Below, in pieces: positions 1,976-53,218 of a DNA stretch of 56,011 bases (position 1 is its first letter; the number at the start of each line of letters is the position of its first letter). The notes beneath the pieces are model-generated. The model was not told the DNA's origin, made no database searches, and saw only the letters and a program-made list of their open reading frames with translations. The position numbers and the translations under genes are program-made. Origin of the DNA: a virus; the IMG/VR virus record IMGVR_UViG_3300010413_000038, positions 1 through 56,011 of that record, one strand, 5' to 3'.

Positions 1976-2780
1976 TTTTGATAAGAAAATAGAATCTATA
2001 ATGTCGGGGGAAAAAGCTTTAAGTTATTCAAAACTTAGTTCTTTTTTAGAAACACCTAAACATTATTATGAACATGAAACTAATGAAGAAGTTACACCGG
2101 CGATGAAAGAAGGTCAAATATTTCATTGTGTATGTTTAGAACTTGAAAATTTTAATAAAAAATACTGGATTTTAGATGATGCAAAGATATGCGAAAAAAT
2201 TGGAGGCGCAAAACCAAGAGGAACTAATGATTATAAGGAATGGAAATTAAACCAAGAACTTTTAAATAAAGGTAAGGAATTAGTATCTATTGATGATTAT
2301 AATACTTTTATTAACATGTCTGATGCTTTAAGGCGAAATAAAGCTTCTAAAATATTAATAAATAGCTTAACAGATAAGGAATTTCCTTTTGAATTTGAAT
2401 ACGATCAATTTAAAATAAAAGGAAAGATTGATGGAAAAGGCGAAATAAAAGAAGATAATTTGTTTTTTGATAAAGGTAAATACATAATAGACTTAAAAAA
2501 AGTTGCAGACGCTTCTTATAAAAAAATAAGATGGGATATAAGAGATAAAAATCTTGATTTACAGGGAGGATTATATTCGTATTCTCAAAAAATCAACAAT
2601 TATTATCTCGTTTTTATTGACAAAAAATGTAATATTACTATTGTAAATCTAATTGAAGAAACATTAAATTCCGGATTTAATAAATTTGAAAATTCTATTA
2701 AAGAATTTCAACGCTGCGCTGAGGAAAATGCATGGCAAAGTTCATATGAATTTTATAACGGAGGATTTATACGAGTGTAA
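1941..2780 (+). CDS. PD-(D/E)XK exonuclease, RecE/YqaJ-like (DUF3799 type)
   Basis: This 279-residue protein has the look of phage exodeoxyribonuclease VIII-like enzymes, which resect duplex ends to give single strands for the ERF annealase. SYSKLSSFLETPKHYYEH lies near the N-terminus, MKEGQIFHC follows, and the core is FKIKGKIDGKG then IIDLKKV, providing the acidic and D-x-K residues of the fold. The start overlaps the preceding small gene, and the stop overlaps the ATG of the next gene. I am confident of the superfamily and less so of the exact family. Confidence 0.8.
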   Translation: MNNLDLKIEISDFDKKIESIMSGEKALSYSKLSSFLETPKHYYEHETNEEVTPAMKEGQIFHCVCLELENFNKKYWILDDAKICEKIGGAKPRGTNDYKEWKLNQELLNKGKELVSIDDYNTFINMSDALRRNKASKILINSLTDKEFPFEFEYDQFKIKGKIDGKGEIKEDNLFFDKGKYIIDLKKVADASYKKIRWDIRDKNLDLQGGLYSYSQKINNYYLVFIDKKCNITIVNLIEETLNSGFNKFENSIKEFQRCAEENAWQSSYEFYNGGFIRV

Positions 2781-3238
2781 TGACTAAAAAAGCGAACATA
2801 CTAATAAAGCATAACGATAGGCTAGTTCCTTTCGATAATGAAGCCAGTGTATTTGTGTCAAGGCTTGAAGAAGGTGATAAGGTTCTATGTGAGAAGTTAA
2901 AAAAAACACGTTCATCACAACAGAATAGAGCCTTACACCTATTCTTTACAATGATCGCAGAAAATCTAAACAAGGAAGGGATAACATTTGTTTATAGAGA
3001 ACTTAAAGGCCAGGAACTTGAAACTAAGTATACTGAACATTTAGTAAAAGAAATGATTTGGAGACCTATTCAGGTCACTTTATTTAATGTAGAGTCTACA
3101 ACTAAATTGACAAGTGAGATGATAAATAAAATCCTTGATGTGTTAGTTAATTTTTTCGCTAATAAAGGAATACAGATATCATTCCCTAGCCGGTTTGATT
3201 TAATGGTTAAAGAAATGGAAGAGAAAGGATATTATTAA
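2780..3238 (+). CDS. NinB-like recombination protein
   Basis: This 152-residue protein contains RSSQQNRALHLFFTMIAENL (about 44-63), which resembles the Q-N-R-x-L-x-x-L/F core of NinB, a DNA-binding protein of lambda-type recombination (Orf family). A conserved-looking KEMIWRPIQVTLF follows. It is translationally coupled to the exonuclease (TAATG). Position next to ERF and exonuclease and upstream of NinG supports the role. The similarity is limited, so the call is tentative. Confidence 0.55.
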   Translation: MTKKANILIKHNDRLVPFDNEASVFVSRLEEGDKVLCEKLKKTRSSQQNRALHLFFTMIAENLNKEGITFVYRELKGQELETKYTEHLVKEMIWRPIQVTLFNVESTTKLTSEMINKILDVLVNFFANKGIQISFPSRFDLMVKEMEEKGYY

Positions 3239-3514: not shown

Positions 3515-4144
3515 ATGGAAGAATTAGTATTTAGATCAGAAAAAGGAAATCCGGTAACAAGCAGTAAGCTTGTGGCTAAAAAATTTAAAAAAAATCATAA
3601 AGATGTATTAAAAGCTATAAGGAATTTAGTAACATCAGATGATTGGTATAAGCGTAATTTTGCGCTCATTGAATATCAACAAGTTACGCACTCTCCTATT
3701 ATAAAAGATAAAGAATATATAATGACAAGAGATGGATTCTCTATTTTAGTTTTTGGATTTACTGGGGAAAAGGCATTAAAATTTAAAATAGATTTTATTG
3801 AAGCTTTTAATAAAATGGAACAAGCTTTAAATAAAATAATTCCAGATTTTAATAATCCTGTAGAAGCAGCAAGAGCATGGGCAGATGAAGTTGAGAAAAA
3901 GCAATTAGCTGAAATAAAAGTAAAAGAATTAGAGCCAAAAGCTGAAAGTTTCGATATTTTTATAGATTCTAAATCGCTTCAAGGATTTAAAGAAGTAGCA
4001 AATATGTTAGGATATGGACGTAATAAATTAATGTCTAAACTTAGAATATTATGTATTCTTACGCATAAAAATATCCCTTACCAACGTTTTTTAAACATGA
4101 AATTATTTGAGGTTAAGGAAAGCCAAAAGGAATTGATTATATAA
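3515..4144 (+). CDS. Rha-family regulator with C-terminal KilAC-like domain
   Basis: From the chosen start at 3515 the protein has 209 residues and begins MEELVFRSEKGNPVTSSKLV, the usual Rha N-terminus. The frame is open back to 3464, but that part would translate the leader hairpin. The N-terminal half fits the phage regulatory Rha domain (VTSSKLVAKKFKKNHKDVLK, then MTRDGFSILVFGFTGEKA). The C-terminal part, with KAESFDIFIDSK, FKEVANMLGYGRNKLMSKLR and PYQRFL, fits a short KilAC antirepressor domain. Such proteins bind DNA and modulate phage gene expression or repressors. The leader suggests control by attenuation. Confidence 0.85.
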   Translation: MEELVFRSEKGNPVTSSKLVAKKFKKNHKDVLKAIRNLVTSDDWYKRNFALIEYQQVTHSPIIKDKEYIMTRDGFSILVFGFTGEKALKFKIDFIEAFNKMEQALNKIIPDFNNPVEAARAWADEVEKKQLAEIKVKELEPKAESFDIFIDSKSLQGFKEVANMLGYGRNKLMSKLRILCILTHKNIPYQRFLNMKLFEVKESQKELII

Positions 4145-12870: not shown

Positions 12871-12876
12871 TTGTAT

Positions 12877-14736
12877 ATGCAAGTAAATGGATTTGAAATA
12901 TCAAAATTTAATATTCACAACATACCTGAAGGTGTAAAATATCATACCTGCCCTTTGTGTAGTGAATCAAGGAAAAAGAAAACTCAAAAATGTTTATCTG
13001 TTTTTTGGGATACAGGAATGGCATCTTGCGCTCATTGTGGTGAAGTAGTTCAGCTTCATGAATGGAAAAAGAAAGATAAACAGGAGGATTATAAGATACC
13101 AGAATGGAAAAACAATACAAAATTATCAGATAGATTAATTAAATGGTTTGAGGGAAGGGGTATAAGTCAGTTTGTTTTGAGATTAATGAAAATATCTGAA
13201 GGAATTGAAAATATGCCGGATAAACAAACAAATACATGGAAAGAAAAAAATACAGTCCAATTCCCTTATTATCGTTACGGTGAAATAATAAACATTAAAT
13301 ATCGTACAGGAGCTAAAGAGTTTAAATTATACAAGGATTCTGAGAAGATAACCTATAATTTAGATAGATTAATAGGTCAGGAAATAATATACATGTGTGA
13401 AGGAGAAATTGATGTTTTATCAATAATGGAGGTTGGAATATATAATGTTGGAAGTTGCCCGAATGGGTTCACAAAAAATACAGTTAATTTAGATTGGATT
13501 AATAACGATGTGGAACATTTTATAAACGCAAAAAAAATAATTTTGTGTTTTGATAATGATATACCCGGTGAAAATGGTAAAAGAGAATTTATACGTAGAT
13601 TTGGAGCTCATAAATGTTATACTGTCGATTTAAAAGGAGAAAAAGATGCTAATGATTTTTTGATTAAATATGGTAAAGAAGAACTAAGAAAAGTACTTGA
13701 AAATCATATTGAAATACCGTTAGAAAATGTAAGCACGTATAATGATTTTAAAGAAGAAGTTAGAGATTTCTTTCTAAATGGAATGCCTAAAGGTTTTCAA
13801 ACAGGTAATTTAATAGGATTAGATAATAATTTTAGTGTTAATTCATCTCATTTAGTGTTAGTTACAGGAATCCCGACATCTGGGAAAAGTGAAGTTGTTG
13901 ATCAAATAACTGTAGGTTATTCTATAAAACATAAAATTGACACAGCATATGCAAGCGTTGAAAATAAACCAAATAGCTTGCATTTATCTAAATTAGTCAG
14001 AAAATTAAACGGGATAACACCTAGACATAAACAAGACTTTAATGATTCGTTTATTGAAGTTGAAAAATATGTGGATAGGCATTTCCATTTTATTGATTTA
14101 GAGGGGAGTTATGATTTAGAAAGAGTTCTTTTAAAAGCTGAAGAACTTGTTTATAGAAAAGGAATAAAATGTCTTGTAATTGATCCTTATAATAAAGTTC
14201 AATATAAGGGTGAAGTTCCAGGAATAACTGGTAATAGAATAAATGATTACACAAATAAATATCTTAGTTTATTAAACGAATTTGCGACTAAATTAGATAT
14301 AATAATTTATCTTGTAGCTCACCCAGTTAAAATGAATAAAATGGATAATGGTAAAAGAGCTATCCCTGATTTTTACGATGTTAAAGGAGGCGGAGAATTT
14401 TATGATATGTGTCATCATGGATTAGTTGTACATCGTGATTACAATTTAGATTTGACATTGATTAAAGTTTTAAAATGTAAATTCGCACATCTTGGGACTA
14501 ATCAGGCAGAAGCTTATTTTAAGTATAATACTAACAATGGAAGATTAAATGATATAACTGGATCTATCGATGAACCTGAAGGGATAAGTTGTGATTATGA
14601 TAATACTAACTGGATAACAAGAGACTATAATAAAGTTGAACAACCAGAAATTGATTATTCAAACAATGATTTAATTGCAGATAATGAAGAGTGGTTTAAT
14701 AAAGAAAATAGAGAAATAGATGAAGCCCCTTTTTAA
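12877..14736 (+). CDS. Bifunctional primase-helicase, T7 gp4-like
   Basis: The protein has 619 residues from ATG 12877. It should prime and unwind DNA at the phage fork. An N-terminal zinc finger has Cys25, 28, 51 and 54, the TOPRIM domain shows MCEGEIDVLS (about 172) and CFDNDIPGENG (about 224), and the RecA-like helicase has Walker A GIPTSGKSE (about 331), Walker B-like CLVIDPYN and a VAHP motif. The C-terminus overlaps the next nuclease gene. A TTG six bases earlier is a possible alternative start. Confidence 0.9.
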   Translation: MQVNGFEISKFNIHNIPEGVKYHTCPLCSESRKKKTQKCLSVFWDTGMASCAHCGEVVQLHEWKKKDKQEDYKIPEWKNNTKLSDRLIKWFEGRGISQFVLRLMKISEGIENMPDKQTNTWKEKNTVQFPYYRYGEIINIKYRTGAKEFKLYKDSEKITYNLDRLIGQEIIYMCEGEIDVLSIMEVGIYNVGSCPNGFTKNTVNLDWINNDVEHFINAKKIILCFDNDIPGENGKREFIRRFGAHKCYTVDLKGEKDANDFLIKYGKEELRKVLENHIEIPLENVSTYNDFKEEVRDFFLNGMPKGFQTGNLIGLDNNFSVNSSHLVLVTGIPTSGKSEVVDQITVGYSIKHKIDTAYASVENKPNSLHLSKLVRKLNGITPRHKQDFNDSFIEVEKYVDRHFHFIDLEGSYDLERVLLKAEELVYRKGIKCLVIDPYNKVQYKGEVPGITGNRINDYTNKYLSLLNEFATKLDIIIYLVAHPVKMNKMDNGKRAIPDFYDVKGGGEFYDMCHHGLVVHRDYNLDLTLIKVLKCKFAHLGTNQAEAYFKYNTNNGRLNDITGSIDEPEGISCDYDNTNWITRDYNKVEQPEIDYSNNDLIADNEEWFNKENREIDEAPF

Positions 14737-24065: not shown

Positions 24066-24659
24066 ATGGATGAATTAAAAAAATATACTTTAAAAGAATT
24101 AAAAGAAAAACTAACAGTTAAAGAAAAAAAATTTTGTCATCAATATATTATTGACTGGAATGGAGCGAGGGCTGCAAGAGAAGCAGGTTATAGTGAAAAA
24201 ACAGCAAGAGAAATAGCACATTATAACTTATCAAAACTTCACATACAGCAATATATAGATTATATTAAGGATGATTTTGAAAAAGAATCAGGTATAAGTA
24301 AATTAAGACAACTAAACGAACTAATTAAAATAGCTTATTCAAGTGTTTCTAATTTACATGAAACATGGATTGAGTTAAAAGAATTCGAATCTTTAACAGA
24401 AGAGCAAAAATCATGTATTGAATCAATTGAAACAAAAACAGAGAAAAGATTAGAATATAATATTGAATCTAAAGAAAGAGATAAGGAAATTGAAATAAAA
24501 TATGTAAAATTAAAACTACATTCAAAAATACAAGCAATAGATCAAATTAATAAGATGATGGGATATAATGCGCCTAATGTATTAGAATTAACAGATAAAC
24601 GAAAAGATATATCTGAATTATTCCCAACTGATGATGAATTAAATGAAACGGAAGATTAA
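24066..24659 (+). CDS. terS: Terminase small subunit
   Basis: The protein has 197 residues. LTVKEKKFCHQYIIDWNGAR followed by AAREAGYSEKTAREIAHYNL is the DNA-binding helix-turn-helix of the Terminase_2 family, which recognises packaging sites and loads the large subunit. The rest is helical. The gene overlaps the large terminase gene start by 17 bases. Confidence 0.9.
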   Translation: MDELKKYTLKELKEKLTVKEKKFCHQYIIDWNGARAAREAGYSEKTAREIAHYNLSKLHIQQYIDYIKDDFEKESGISKLRQLNELIKIAYSSVSNLHETWIELKEFESLTEEQKSCIESIETKTEKRLEYNIESKERDKEIEIKYVKLKLHSKIQAIDQINKMMGYNAPNVLELTDKRKDISELFPTDDELNETED

Positions 24660-25059
24660 TCCAAATCTGAAATATCTTTATTCATGCCTGAAAAATCAAA
24701 AGTATGATGAAAATGAAGAATTAATATCAGGTAAAAGAGGAGTTATTTTAGAAGGTTCTAGTCGATGCTTTAGTGAGAATCAAAAAATATTAACTGATAA
24801 AGGAGTTAAAAGAATATATGATATAACCACTCAGGATAATGTAATAACATATAATGAAAATAAACGAGTAAATGAAATAAAGCGAGTTATAGCTAAATTA
24901 GTATTTAAAAATTCAAAAAAATGTTATAGGATAAAATTAAAAAATAATGAATTTATAGAAGTCACTGATGATCATGAATTTTATTATAATGGTAAATGGG
25001 TAAGTATTTCTAATATAATATATATTTGGAATGAAAGGAATAAAAAAAGAGAAAAATAA
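24643..25059 (+). CDS. terL: Terminase large subunit N-part fused to N-intein
   Basis: This 138-residue product has a 41-residue N-extein ending VILEGSSR, the first half of the Walker A loop, followed by an N-intein of 97 residues. The intein begins with Cys42 (CFSENQKILTDKGVKRIYDI, block A) and has the block B V-T-D-D-H motif around FIEVTDDHEFYYNGKWV. The frame then stops. The length is that of a classical split-intein N-half. The matching C-intein and C-extein are at 25684. Trans-splicing would restore GSSR-SGKT. Confidence 0.85.
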   Translation: MKRKINPNLKYLYSCLKNQKYDENEELISGKRGVILEGSSRCFSENQKILTDKGVKRIYDITTQDNVITYNENKRVNEIKRVIAKLVFKNSKKCYRIKLKNNEFIEVTDDHEFYYNGKWVSISNIIYIWNERNKKREK

Positions 25060-25815
25060 ATTTATTGCTCGTATATCAATAAATGGTAAAAGAATTCAAA
25101 ATAGTTTTGATGATATAGAATCAGCTAATAGTTGGTTGTGTTCAATACGGTTAAATAATAAATTAAAATCATTGCCTAATGAGGTATGGAAAATTATTCC
25201 TAATTTTAATAGATATATGGCATCTAATTTAGGTCGTATAAAATCATTAAATTATAAAAATTCTGGAATTGAAAAATTAATTAATCCATCTAAATCAACA
25301 GATGGATATTTAAAGACAATGTTAAAGAATAACGATAATAAATATTGTTCATGGGAGGTTCATAAATTTGTAATGAGATCATTTTATGGTAATTATAATG
25401 GATTAGAGGTTAATCATAAAGATGGTAATAAATTAAATAATCAGTTAACTAATTTAGAAATATGTACTAAATCTGAAAATGCTATACATGCGATAAATAA
25501 TGGATTATGGGAAATAAAAGTTGGAGAAAAAAATGGTATGGCTAAATTAACAAAAGAACAAGTAATTCAAGCTAGAGAAGCTAAAAAAAATAATGGTCGA
25601 TTTTGGGGAAGAAAAGAAATTGCAAAAAGTTTTAATATATCTGAAAAACATTTACAAAAAATAGTTAATAATCCAGATAAATTATGGTACAATGCTTAGA
25701 TATAAATCAAATAGAAAGTATAGAAGAAATTGAATTAGATTATGTTTATGATATAACCATAAAGGATAATCATAATTATTATATTAATGAATTAAATCCT
25801 ATATTAGTACATAAC
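24766..25815 (+). mobile_element. Split intein with embedded free-standing endonuclease gene
   Basis: The element starts at Cys42 of the terminase N-part and ends at the Asn before Ser45 of the C-part. It includes the N-intein, an HNH endonuclease gene in a different reading frame, and the C-intein. Frame 1 is closed by TAA at 25057 and again at 25678, so one uninterrupted protein cannot be made without two frameshifts. The layout matches the known fractured-gene arrangement of split inteins flanking an endonuclease gene. Confidence 0.85.
25031..25699 (+). CDS. NUMOD4/HNH homing endonuclease inside the split intein
   Basis: The protein has 222 residues. Domains in order are a KNKFIARISINGKRI DNA-binding segment (AP2-like), NUMOD4 (EVWKIIPNFNRYMASNLGRI), the HNH core (LEVNHKDGNKLNNQLTNLEI) and a C-terminal helix-turn-helix (FWGRKEIAKSFNISEKHLQK). 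It should cut intein-less terminase genes and spread the element. The start overlaps the N-intein by 29 bases and the stop overlaps the C-intein by 16, both out of frame, so it is probably translated as its own protein. Confidence 0.88.
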   Translation: MKGIKKEKNKFIARISINGKRIQNSFDDIESANSWLCSIRLNNKLKSLPNEVWKIIPNFNRYMASNLGRIKSLNYKNSGIEKLINPSKSTDGYLKTMLKNNDNKYCSWEVHKFVMRSFYGNYNGLEVNHKDGNKLNNQLTNLEICTKSENAIHAINNGLWEIKVGEKNGMAKLTKEQVIQAREAKKNNGRFWGRKEIAKSFNISEKHLQKIVNNPDKLWYNA

Positions 25816-27027
25816 TCAGGTAAAACATGGAGCTCAGTAGATTTAATAATATTAATATGTACAAGAATAGAAACCAATTGCGTTATAAACATAATAAAAG
25901 AAACCTACCAAAGCTTTAAAACAACATTATATAATGATTTTAATGAAAGGCTTCCTATGTTTGGTATTCCTTCACCGTTTGAACATGCAAAAGAATTGCA
26001 TAGCTTTAAAATATTCGGTAATAAAATAAATCTTATTGGAGCTGATAAAATAAGCAAGTTCGAGGGTATGGGATGCGATTATCTATATATTAACGAGATG
26101 TTGCCTATTGATAAAAAAGTGTTTGACCATGCAGAAATGAGATGTAAAAAGTTTTGGTGGGCTGATTATAACCCAAGTGTTACTGAACATTATATATTCA
26201 ATAATATTATTCCTAGAAAAGACGTAGGATTTATTCGTACAACATTTAATCATAATCCTTTTATATCAATACAAGAAAAAAAGAAGATACTTAGTTATGA
26301 GCCTTGGGAATCAGGAAGTTATATTGTAACAGAAGATTCAATATATTATAATGATAAGTTAGTAGATGAAAAAAACTATCCACCTCCACATAAAGAAAAT
26401 ATAGAAAATGGAACAGCCGATGAGTTTATGTGGAAAGTTTATGGATTAGGATTACGAGGAGCAATGAGAGGAGTTATATTTAATAATGTAACTTGGATAG
26501 ATGAATTTCCTGATATACATTTTGATTATGGATTAGACTTTGGATTTATAGCAGATCCAACAGTTATTACAAAATGTGCTGAAGATTATAATAATATATG
26601 GATTGAATATTTATCTTACGCTCCTATGGAAACACCGGATCAAATTTTTGAATATGGGAAATCAATAGGAATGAATTATAGATTACCAATAACAGCAGAT
26701 TCAAGTGATAAATATACAGGAGAAAATAAGGGAACTGTTGAGATGGTTAAGAGTTTACGAAAAATGGGATGGAATATAACTAAAGTAAGCAAAACGAAAA
26801 ATGTTATGTATTGGATAACATCTATGAAACAAAAAAAGATTCATATAGTAAAAAATGAATTCTATAAAGAAGCTAAAAGAGAACAGGAAAATTATAAATT
26901 AAGAGAAATTAATGGAATATCAATTAATCAGCCAATAGATGACTTTAATCATGGTTGGGATTCAGCGAGATATAGACATATGGCATTTAATTCTAAACGA
27001 CAAGGTATTATATTAAATAATGATTAA
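25684..27027 (+). CDS. terL: C-intein fused to terminase large subunit C-part
   Basis: This 447-residue product starts with a 44-residue C-intein: YVYDITIKDNHNYYINELNP (block F) and a final LVHN. Splicing to Ser45 would rejoin SGKTWSS to GSSR from the N-part. The terminase follows: Walker B-like CDYLYINEM, then the nuclease acidic residues in FDYGLDFGFIADPT and DDFNHGWDSARY. It packages DNA into procapsids. The separate ATG at 25684 lies six bases after a frame-1 stop, which favours independent translation. Confidence 0.88.
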   Translation: MVQCLDINQIESIEEIELDYVYDITIKDNHNYYINELNPILVHNSGKTWSSVDLIILICTRIETNCVINIIKETYQSFKTTLYNDFNERLPMFGIPSPFEHAKELHSFKIFGNKINLIGADKISKFEGMGCDYLYINEMLPIDKKVFDHAEMRCKKFWWADYNPSVTEHYIFNNIIPRKDVGFIRTTFNHNPFISIQEKKKILSYEPWESGSYIVTEDSIYYNDKLVDEKNYPPPHKENIENGTADEFMWKVYGLGLRGAMRGVIFNNVTWIDEFPDIHFDYGLDFGFIADPTVITKCAEDYNNIWIEYLSYAPMETPDQIFEYGKSIGMNYRLPITADSSDKYTGENKGTVEMVKSLRKMGWNITKVSKTKNVMYWITSMKQKKIHIVKNEFYKEAKREQENYKLREINGISINQPIDDFNHGWDSARYRHMAFNSKRQGIILNND

Positions 27028-36236: not shown

Positions 36237-36668
36237 ATGAACTTAGACCGCATTATAAAAAATTGTGACAGAGTAATAAAAGAACTTCCTTCTTATGCAG
36301 CAGAGATTATCGAAGAAGAAAAGAAGGAAGTGCTTTCTATTCAAGAGGAACAAATTAAAAGCGGTTATAGAGGTGATGGAAAAAGAACAAAGAAATATAA
36401 AAGCGATGCATATGTAAAGCGTAAAAAACAAACATCAAAATCAAAACCTTATCGTGATTATTTTGATACGGGAGAATTTTTAGGAAGTATGTTTTTAAAC
36501 GCTAACGGAGACAACGTTTTTATAGGATCATATGATGAGAAAACGGCATTTCTGGAAAAAGAAGAAGATAACGAGATGTTTGGAATAATGCCGTCAAATC
36601 AGAGTAAAGTAGATAAACGAATAACACCAAAATTAATTAAAAAAGTAGGAAATGAACTTGGTAAATAA
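36237..36668 (+). CDS. Virion morphogenesis or tail completion protein
   Basis: This 143-residue protein has a basic middle (SGYRGDGKRTKKYKSDAYVK) and the segment YFDTGEFLGSMFLNANGDNV followed by FLEKEEDNEMFGIM, resembling phage virion morphogenesis or minor tail proteins. It overlaps the next gene by 17 bases. Confidence 0.55.
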   Translation: MNLDRIIKNCDRVIKELPSYAAEIIEEEKKEVLSIQEEQIKSGYRGDGKRTKKYKSDAYVKRKKQTSKSKPYRDYFDTGEFLGSMFLNANGDNVFIGSYDEKTAFLEKEEDNEMFGIMPSNQSKVDKRITPKLIKKVGNELGK

Positions 36669-36966
36669 CAAAACAGGAAAATCATTAAAGATAGAAGATG
36701 CTTTAGTAATAGCGGGGCAACAGGCATATATAATTAAGCCTAAAGAGGCGTGGTTATTAGAGGTTGGGAGTCTTTTGAAATTTGAATATCGTAAAAAACA
36801 TGGTAAAGTAGTTTATACTTTTAAATGGAATCAAAAAGAAAACAAACTTGATATTTACGACTCAGATAATAAATATGTTAAATCACTCGAAAGAAAATCA
36901 GAAACTAAAGTATCATCAGACGTGTCAAACGCTACCGCTAAGAAAAATGATAAATCTACAAAATAG
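36652..36966 (+). CDS. Possible tail assembly chaperone
   Basis: The 104-residue product is basic and ends in a lysine-rich tail. It and the next gene occupy the place of the gpG/gpGT chaperones between tail tube and tape measure. The two frames overlap by 20 bases in different frames, so a frameshift cannot be ruled out, although the next gene has its own ATG. Confidence 0.45.
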   Translation: MNLVNNKTGKSLKIEDALVIAGQQAYIIKPKEAWLLEVGSLLKFEYRKKHGKVVYTFKWNQKENKLDIYDSDNKYVKSLERKSETKVSSDVSNATAKKNDKSTK

Positions 36967-37510
36967 TGTAGATGAAAATGGAGTGGCAGACGCAAGACAC
37001 ATATTAATTGATGAAGTTTGGCCAGAAGATTATGAAGATTCTAATCTTATCCAGGCAGTAGAAAAAATAATGATTGAATGGAATAAGTTGAATGGAATAG
37101 AGCATGATATGGATGAATTATTATATAAACAAGATTCAAATCTTTATGATAGGGCTAAACTTGAAGCTTTAGAATTGGCATATATTTGTTGTAATTTAGC
37201 TGAATCCGCCGAAATATTAGGAAATATAAAAGAAAAAGAATTATGTCTAAAAGAATGTGATGATATACTCAATAAGTTTAATATATATGGATTAAAAACA
37301 AAGCATGATATTGAGCAAAAATCAAAACAAATTGAACAAAAAATAAAAGATGATATAAAAGAGAATATAAGAAAACATAAACATAAAAAAAATATTAATT
37401 TTTATGATTTAATTATTCCTATTGAAATATATTTTAAAAAAGATATCGATGAGAATATAACATGTGCTAAATTTATATCATATGTTAATAAATTAAAAAA
37501 TGTATCATAA
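36947..37510 (+). CDS. Possible tail assembly chaperone, second gene
   Basis: The protein has 187 residues from ATG 36947; an upstream ATG at 36848 is rejected because it lies inside the previous gene. The protein is helical and acidic in the first half and basic later. Its stop overlaps the tape measure start. Function is inferred from position only. Confidence 0.5.
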   Translation: MINLQNSVDENGVADARHILIDEVWPEDYEDSNLIQAVEKIMIEWNKLNGIEHDMDELLYKQDSNLYDRAKLEALELAYICCNLAESAEILGNIKEKELCLKECDDILNKFNIYGLKTKHDIEQKSKQIEQKIKDDIKENIRKHKHKKNINFYDLIIPIEIYFKKDIDENITCAKFISYVNKLKNVS

Positions 37511-51787: not shown

Positions 51788-53218
51788 ATGTCAAGATTTA
51801 ACACTACTTCGGAAGGTACTAAAACCGTAAATTTAGCAGGTGGACAAGCATATAAACAAACACCTGAATTAGAATTGGTTTCAATATTGCTTACTTCGTT
51901 TGCAAATGACCAGTTTTATCGTTCATCTTCCGACACATTTGACACTTTAACGCAATTGATTTTAATGTGCGATAAAAAGTTTGTTGCGAAAGCTGCCATT
52001 TATGCAAGGACTAAATTTGGAATGCGTTCTATTTCTCACGTAGTTGCTTCCGAATTGGCAAAACATATTGGAGGTAATAAGTGGGCAAAAGATTTCTATG
52101 AATCTATTGTTTACAGACCTGACGATATGATGGAAATTTTATCGTATCATACATTAAAGAACGGTAAAATTCCAAATGCAATTAAGAAAGGTTTTGCTAA
52201 AGCATTTGATAAATTCGACCGTTATCAATTGGCTAAATATAGAGGTGAAGGGAAAGGATATAAATTGATTGATATTGTTAATTTAGTTCATCCAGTTCCG
52301 GTTGAAAAGAATGTAGATGCCATAAATGCACTTGTTAAAGGAGAATTGAAATCGTTCTATACTTGGGAATCTGAGTTAACACGTGCCGGGCAAAATGCGA
52401 CTTCTGAGGAAGAAAAGGCAGACTTTAAAAAAGATGTTTGGATTAAACTTGTAGGGGAACGTAAACTTGGATATTTTGCACTTTTGCGAAATCTTAGAAA
52501 CATTATTGAACAAGCACCTGAAGTTTTGGCCGAATCGCTTGAAATGCTTACGAATGAATCAATGATAAAAAAATCTTTGGTTTTACCGTTTCGATTTATT
52601 ACTGCTTTCGATGAAATTCAAAAGTTGAATAACGGTAAAATTGTTCGTGAAACATTGATTGCTTTGAATAAGGCTGTTGACATTTCAATTTCCAACGTTC
52701 CAAAGTTTGATGGTGAAACACTGGTTGTTTTGGACGTTTCCGGCTCTATGTCTGGAAAACCTGCTGTAATTGGCTCTCTGTTTTCTGCTGTTTTGGTAAA
52801 ATCAAACAACGCTGATTTTATGACATTTTCAGACAGGGCGCAATATCGAAACGTAAATCCAATGGATTCTACAATAACAATTGCAAATTCATTGCGCTTT
52901 TCGATGGGAGGAACCAATTTTCAAGACATTTTCAGGGTTGCAAACAAAAAGTATGACCGTGTAGTAATACTTTCAGATATGCAGGGATGGATAGGTTATT
53001 ACTCACCTGTTGCTGAATATAACAACTGGAAACGAGTTACCGGAGCAAATCCTTTTGTTTATTCGTTCGACCTTAATTCATACGGAAACATGCAATTTCC
53101 TGAACAGAATGTATTTTGTTTAGCTGGATTTTCTGACAAGGTTTTCGATATTATGAAACTTTTGGAACAAGATAAGAACGCATTAGTGAACGAGATTCGC
53201 AAAGTTTCTTTTTCCTAA
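51788..53218 (+). CDS. rsr: Ro60/TROVE protein with vWA domain
   Basis: This 476-residue protein is a bacterial Ro60 orthologue. The N-terminal alpha-helical TROVE repeats (about 15-300, with FGMRSISHVVASELAKHIGG and LGYFALLRNLRNI) form a ring that binds misfolded or single-stranded RNA and Y RNA. The vWA domain carries the MIDAS motif LDVSGSMSG with Asp316, Ser318 and Ser320. In bacteria, Ro60 with a Y RNA tethers nucleases or repair enzymes. The Y RNA array lies directly upstream, and an RNA ligase lies 2.8 kb downstream on the circle. Confidence 0.93.
   Translation: MSRFNTTSEGTKTVNLAGGQAYKQTPELELVSILLTSFANDQFYRSSSDTFDTLTQLILMCDKKFVAKAAIYARTKFGMRSISHVVASELAKHIGGNKWAKDFYESIVYRPDDMMEILSYHTLKNGKIPNAIKKGFAKAFDKFDRYQLAKYRGEGKGYKLIDIVNLVHPVPVEKNVDAINALVKGELKSFYTWESELTRAGQNATSEEEKADFKKDVWIKLVGERKLGYFALLRNLRNIIEQAPEVLAESLEMLTNESMIKKSLVLPFRFITAFDEIQKLNNGKIVRETLIALNKAVDISISNVPKFDGETLVVLDVSGSMSGKPAVIGSLFSAVLVKSNNADFMTFSDRAQYRNVNPMDSTITIANSLRFSMGGTNFQDIFRVANKKYDRVVILSDMQGWIGYYSPVAEYNNWKRVTGANPFVYSFDLNSYGNMQFPEQNVFCLAGFSDKVFDIMKLLEQDKNALVNEIRKVSFS

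Follow-up and report, generated by a model that had tools for sequence, protein, structure and literature searches.

A terminase large subunit gene divided within its Walker A motif by a putative split intein and a free-standing HNH endonuclease gene

Results

The sequence analysed here, referred to as the window, is the whole of the 56,011-nucleotide (nt) virus record IMGVR_UViG_3300010413_000038 from IMG/VR (positions 1-56,011), and the locus of interest is its terL gene, which encodes the terminase large subunit (TerL). The gene lies between terS upstream and the portal gene downstream, in an intact packaging and virion module, and it is divided within the Walker A motif exactly between R and S (EGSSR / SGKTW). 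The upstream open reading frame (ORF) reads MKRK...LEGSSR and continues as CFSENQ..., the downstream ORF reaches SGKTW after an N-terminal stretch ending LVHN, and a gene for an HNH endonuclease sits between them, overlapping the first by 29 nt and the second by 16 nt. N-intein and C-intein are read in a common frame, which contains 43 stop codons over the length of the HNH gene. Coordinates are listed in Table 1.

Table 1. Features of the divided terL locus (window coordinates; aa, amino acids)
Feature	Position	Strand	Basis
terS, terminase small subunit	24066..24659	+	Pfam Terminase_2 1e-28
N-part ORF, frame 1	24643..25059
TerL N-extein, 41 aa, ends EGSSR (first half of Walker A)	24643..24765	+	ORF; alignment with uninterrupted relatives
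N-intein half, 97 aa	24766..25059	+	TIGR01445 9e-9; N-half alignment; PDB profile match gp41-1 5e-9
Cys1 codon	24766..24768
Block B, TDDH	24964..24975
TATATTTG, Bacteroidota -7 promoter-like box, close 5' of HNH start	25021..25028	+	TAnnTTTG
HNH homing endonuclease gene, free-standing, 222 aa, frame 2	25031..25699	+	NUMOD4 + HNH_3; I-HmuI profile
A7 homopolymer in first overlap	25041..25050
Stop of N-part	25057..25059
C-part ORF, frame 1	25684..27027
C-intein half, 44 aa, own ATG within HNH 3' end, LVHN end	25684..25815	+	TIGR01443 5e-4; C-half alignment
TerL C-extein, 403 aa, Ser+1 GKTW onward (second half of Walker A, remaining ATPase, nuclease)	25816..27027	+	tblastn; PHROG

The residues of a class-1 intein are complete in the window (Cys1, TDDH, LVHN and Ser+1), and the matches to the curated models of the intein N-terminus (TIGR01445) and C-terminus (TIGR01443) are each above the curated cut-off. 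A first-pass annotation of this DNA had described a Walker A loop split between an EGSSR part with a Cys-initial N-intein carrying block B and a C-part with its own ATG and a C-intein ending HN before SGKT, with an HNH gene in another frame overlapping both, and the ORF coordinates and profile matches bear this out. Chance occurrence of intein motifs was ruled out by the curated models and the homologues described below. An intron was also rejected, as Rfam gave no match in the window and the gap is coding throughout.

The C-extein is assigned to the terminase large subunit by PHROG, and tblastn aligned about 35 intein-free relatives in IMG/VR to it from the SGKT residues onward, at about 50-64% identity. 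The first-pass annotation had proposed a search for intein-free homologues; EGSSRSGKTW or a close variant is unbroken in those relatives whose motif was read, and Nekkels_1, a cultured phage of Cellulophaga with 55% identity, reads EGGTRSGKTW without a break. A search for close relatives with the N-part alone gave no matches. Among the loci found in this analysis, which carry L-numbers, the TerL nearest to that of the window is the intein-free L001 (65%) and the nearest HNH is that of L233.

The HNH protein of the window matches HNH_3 (1.5e-10) and NUMOD4 (5.5e-9) in Pfam, both well above cut-off, and its profile matches I-HmuI (1u3e, 1e-17); by this domain pair and profile relation it is a predicted member of the I-HmuI-like class. 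It has an extra N-terminal segment that is also present in L407.

The same arrangement was found repeatedly. A search for V-H-N-S-G-K-T-W recovered L126, which has the anatomy of the window at 42-45% identity, and scans guided by the HNH gene added L153, L154 and L156 and then L232-L234, the last three in contigs of bacterial metagenome-assembled genomes. Alignment scans with the N-half and C-half returned 51 rows, representing 37 distinct viral split inteins with an HNH of the same family between the halves. All are at the P-loop, 23 of them in TerL-like genes and 14 in genes for DnaB-like primase-helicases. Cys1 and a VHN followed by Ser are present in 37/37 and the TxxH motif was recognised in all but one, so the catalytic residues are conserved though the inteins are only 30-50% identical. 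The frame of the C-half relative to the N-half is 0 in 22 loci, 2 in ten and 1 in five, a spread that excludes one common pair of indel errors and indicates that frame is not kept once the gene is fractured. With the window, these loci uphold two further proposals of the first-pass annotation: that the split is natural, not a continuous intein broken by frameshift errors, and that this is a fractured-gene arrangement with a free-standing endonuclease gene between split-intein halves.

Among phage primase-helicases of the DnaB-like type, the P-loop carries the cassette at L418, L421-L435, L439 and L443. The window has its own primase/helicase gene (12871-14736), in which the P-loop is uninterrupted (VTGIPTSGKSEVVDQ), and so carries an unoccupied site of this second kind in the same genome.

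A TAnnTTTG box, named in published papers as the -7 consensus of Bacteroidota, precedes the HNH ATG at short distance in 17/38 split loci (0.5 expected). Within the window, only 1/36 ORF starts checked has this motif at 25 nt or less. Amino-acid conservation at the end of the N-intein may account for part of the excess.

Relatives of the element in other states were also recovered. Contiguous mini-inteins of 131-152 aa, lacking the HNH gene, occur at the same P-loop site in L400, L410, L419, L440 and L441, the last of these in a TerL belonging to the family of the window's own. On these mini-inteins the N-half profile spans positions 1-86 and the C-half profile 98-139, so the HNH gene occupies the loop between them. 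The AlphaFold model of the L441 mini-intein has a Hint fold (predicted local distance difference test score 90, falling at residues 81-100) and matches the structures of gp41-1, NpuDnaE and NrdJ-1; by alignment to the mini-inteins and by this predicted fold, the two separate ORFs of the window together cover one complete Hint domain. Searched alone against PDB profiles, the N-half profile has gp41-1 as its first match.

In L232, L409, L420 and L447 the intein frame is open across the whole HNH gene, which is read in another frame. No stop is present in the open frames, where synonymous shuffles gave expected counts of 18.3 (L232), 9.4 (L409), 7.8 (L420) and 9.9 (L447); in L232 the intein ORF is at 1818-2744. 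The HNH of these four loci is dual-coded inside a cis intein. A classical bifunctional intein, in which the HNH would be a fused domain, was rejected as a description, as the HNH of these open-frame relatives is in a different frame from the intein and the nearest HNH relatives outside the intein loci are free-standing genes. At two further loci the halves are split with no HNH between them: in L438 (helicase P-loop, 2681-3118) only TAATAAACATGG separates them, and in L398 (TerL, 2504-3118) a different small ORF takes the place of the HNH. Because mini-intein, dual-coded, fractured and HNH-less loci are all found, an order is suggested of mini-intein, HNH insertion, dual coding or fracture, and finally HNH loss with the split kept, in which we infer the direction.

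The HNHs of the intein loci form one group in the tree (97/75), with the intein-less L039 nested inside it. In the TerL tree intein presence takes six changes, at least five of which are forced by well-supported branches. Together, the grouped HNHs and the scattered presence of inteins among TerLs indicate that the cassette is mobile among terL genes. Outside the intein group, the most closely related HNHs are encoded by the free-standing genes mentioned above, which end about 80-140 nt before the Walker A codons of a terL gene.

Most of the terL genes next to these sister HNHs are interrupted at those Walker A codons by a short insert. One kind is 39-42 nt long, contains stops and a conserved hairpin (CCCCCTNTGAATTAAGTAGNAGGGGG), and lies between two Ala codons (L064, L076 at 2672-2737, L084, L085, L087, L094, L124 and L133-L151). 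Among 15 distinct sequences the gap is 39 nt in 11, 40 nt in one, 41 nt in two and 42 nt in one, so that all three frames are represented, and Ala codons are at both ends in 14/15. The inserts occur in two unrelated TerL types and interrupt the codons of GGTSA|GKT or, in L151, of GGAA|GGGKS. An HNH gene is directly upstream in 12/24 rows and missing upstream of the other 12. The hairpin shows compensatory changes, the predicted folds contain an additional 5' stem-loop, and for L076, L085 and L151 they include an outer stem by which the regions of the two Ala codons are drawn together. The inserts resemble the ribosome bypass of T4 gene 60, and the variation in gap length between fixed codons argues for such a putative bypass here.

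Three other kinds of insert are shorter. In the first, a Ser codon is followed by UGA and a further 2-3 nt (L048 at 3897-3925, L049, L050, L158, L159 and L187), another is the 8-nt GGC-UGA-UU-GG[A/C] (L046 at 2199-2230, and L047 as GGC-UGA-UU-GGC), and the last is a 5-nt insert in L039 (4281-4309, CGG-CU-CGT). These frame-breaking or UGA-bearing inserts of 5-8 nt, in terL genes that have an HNH gene directly upstream, could possibly be passed by short ribosome hops. Six HNH-linked terL genes are uninterrupted (L053, L157, L161, L178, L227 and L299), as is that of the cultured relative FpV9 (GGTSAGKT). The hairpin pattern was absent from the genome contigs searched, and the hairpin DNA from the cultured phages searched.

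A related HNH gene was also seen in L052 (3305-7732) with a piece of a DnaE-like polymerase gene on either side, where the second ORF begins with an unusual C-intein-like stretch lacking His-Asn.

Discussion

The fractured terL gene of the window very probably arose by invasion of a P-loop mini-intein by an HNH gene, with repair of the product by trans-splicing and homing of the HNH at the P-loop codons. Two precursors would be translated from separate starts, and translation of the C-part may be coupled to that of the HNH because its start overlaps the HNH end. The halves would then associate and trans-splice by class-1 chemistry (Cys1, Thr-x-x-His, His-Asn and Ser+1) to give a seamless EGSSRSGKTW P-loop, and the packaging ATPase would be able to work only after this step. 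During co-infection the HNH would cut intein-free terL alleles at the P-loop codons, following which HNH and split intein would be copied together by co-conversion, and an occupied allele would be immune because its target is interrupted. The route envisaged runs from a P-loop mini-intein, through entry of the HNH gene into the intein loop, either to dual coding, with the intein frame held open, or to fracture, and a fractured gene could remain split even after the HNH was lost.

Several points weigh against this account. Expression, splicing and cleavage are predicted here from sequence, and the P-loop codons are, by their position, the presumptive target of the HNH. The N-intein of L233 is frameshifted, so some copies of the cassette may be decaying, and a cultured phage with the split intein and HNH arrangement was looked for and none was found.

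Alternative explanations were considered alongside it. The window is a single metagenomic record with the A7 homopolymer in the first overlap, as might be expected had two false indels broken one continuous TerL-intein-HNH ORF; however, dozens of independent contigs share the split with differing frame relations and with HNH start and stop codons at the same places, and the nearest HNH relatives are free-standing genes, which leaves such assembly or sequencing errors a minimal chance. Ribosomal frameshifting, by which N-part, HNH and C-part would be fused into one polypeptide (a cis intein with an HNH domain), could draw on the overlapping ORFs, the A-rich overlap and the intein frame that is open in L232, L409, L420 and L447. 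It is nonetheless highly improbable, as frame relations vary between loci, the HNH of those open-frame relatives is in a frame other than that of the intein and hence is not a fused domain, and L438 is split without any HNH.

That the locus is a broken pseudogene, with an inactivated intein and TerL in a decaying phage and no splicing, is suggested by the frameshift in L233 but is very unlikely given the conservation of catalytic residues among such divergent inteins and the intact packaging and virion module of the window. It is somewhat easier to imagine, though still unlikely, that the intein splices and the HNH lacks homing activity, being either a degenerate passenger or a protein with a packaging role like that of the HK97 HNH. 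Cos cleavage is among the functions that an HNH gene lying upstream of a terminase can have (HK97; PMC10448857). Against this, HNH_3 and NUMOD4 are both matched well above cut-off, and the scatter of the cassette over both TerL and helicase genes is unexplained by packaging.

For the wider HNH family we lean slightly towards a P-loop-homing lineage that would persist in essential ATPase genes through different erasers acting after the DNA level at the same codons: a mini-intein with a dual-coded HNH, a fractured trans-splicing intein as in the window, or a bypassed hairpin or stop insert.

The closest comparison is with the fractured phage genes that Dassa et al. in 2009 (cited in PMC11766414) reportedly described, in which naturally split inteins (gp41-1, gp41-8, NrdJ-1 and IMPDH-1) accompany a free-standing endonuclease gene. 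That endonuclease is said to belong to a different, new family, reportedly Vsr-like. The window shares with gp41-1 and the others the canonical split of about 100/40 aa, and gp41-1 is the first match of the N-half profile; the window differs in its NUMOD4/HNH_3 I-HmuI-like enzyme, in the P-loop site and in having contiguous and dual-coded relatives. Phage terminase large subunits with naturally split inteins are likewise known: AceL-TerL, GOS-TerL and Cat-TerL are atypical, with N-parts of 25-37 aa, C-parts of 104-115 aa and Cys+1 (PMC11766414). An atypical split of this type was ruled out for the window by its 97/44 aa halves and Ser+1. The Walker A inteins described in mycobacteriophage TerLs are horizontally mobile and contiguous (Kelley et al. 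2016, PMC5050341); TerL1-a lies there between Lys and Thr, whereas in the window the interruption comes three residues before that point (R|SGKT) and the intein halves flank an HNH gene.

In phage T4, gene 60 is read by ribosome bypass and adjoins the HNH gene mobA (PMC5009743, PMC3014915). The sister loci with short inserts are like it in having an HNH beside an interrupted essential gene whose product would be restored after transcription, and would be recurrent relatives of the T4 bypass cassette; the window differs in that restoration would be by protein splicing. The out-of-frame HNHs of L232, L409, L420 and L447 recall the ShiLan domain, a hidden HNH within an insertion that is open in the host frame of a methylase (PMC11855218), which has no intein splicing domain. 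Phage ICP1 carries a terL intron with an adjacent T5orf172 homing endonuclease gene, the two showing collaborative homing (PMC10448857). There too an endonuclease gene beside an interrupted terL travels with the insertion, with an intron and T5orf172 in place of the split intein and HNH.

Each of these elements is already known singly: TerL split inteins (AceL, GOS and Cat), TerL inteins at the P-loop, fractured genes, and HNHs hidden out of frame. Their combination with this HNH class, at the P-loops of two unrelated ATPases and in such a series of states, did not turn up in the open-licence literature, and earlier reports elsewhere are possible. The related states (mini-intein, dual-coded HNH, fractured, and split with HNH lost) bear on the origin of split inteins, and the new natural split inteins, which number in the dozens and have P-loop junctions, are possible tools for protein ligation. 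The cut falls in the packaging motor's most conserved loop, so that assembly of the motor would require trans-splicing.

Two other features of the window can be recorded. It encodes an RNA-binding protein (phrog_850, 51788-53218) and an RNA ligase (phrog_548, 132-1070), possibly for RNA repair. Two overlapping ORFs (36652-36966 and 36848-37510) without a family match directly precede the tape-measure gene, a position usually taken by frameshifted tail-assembly chaperones.
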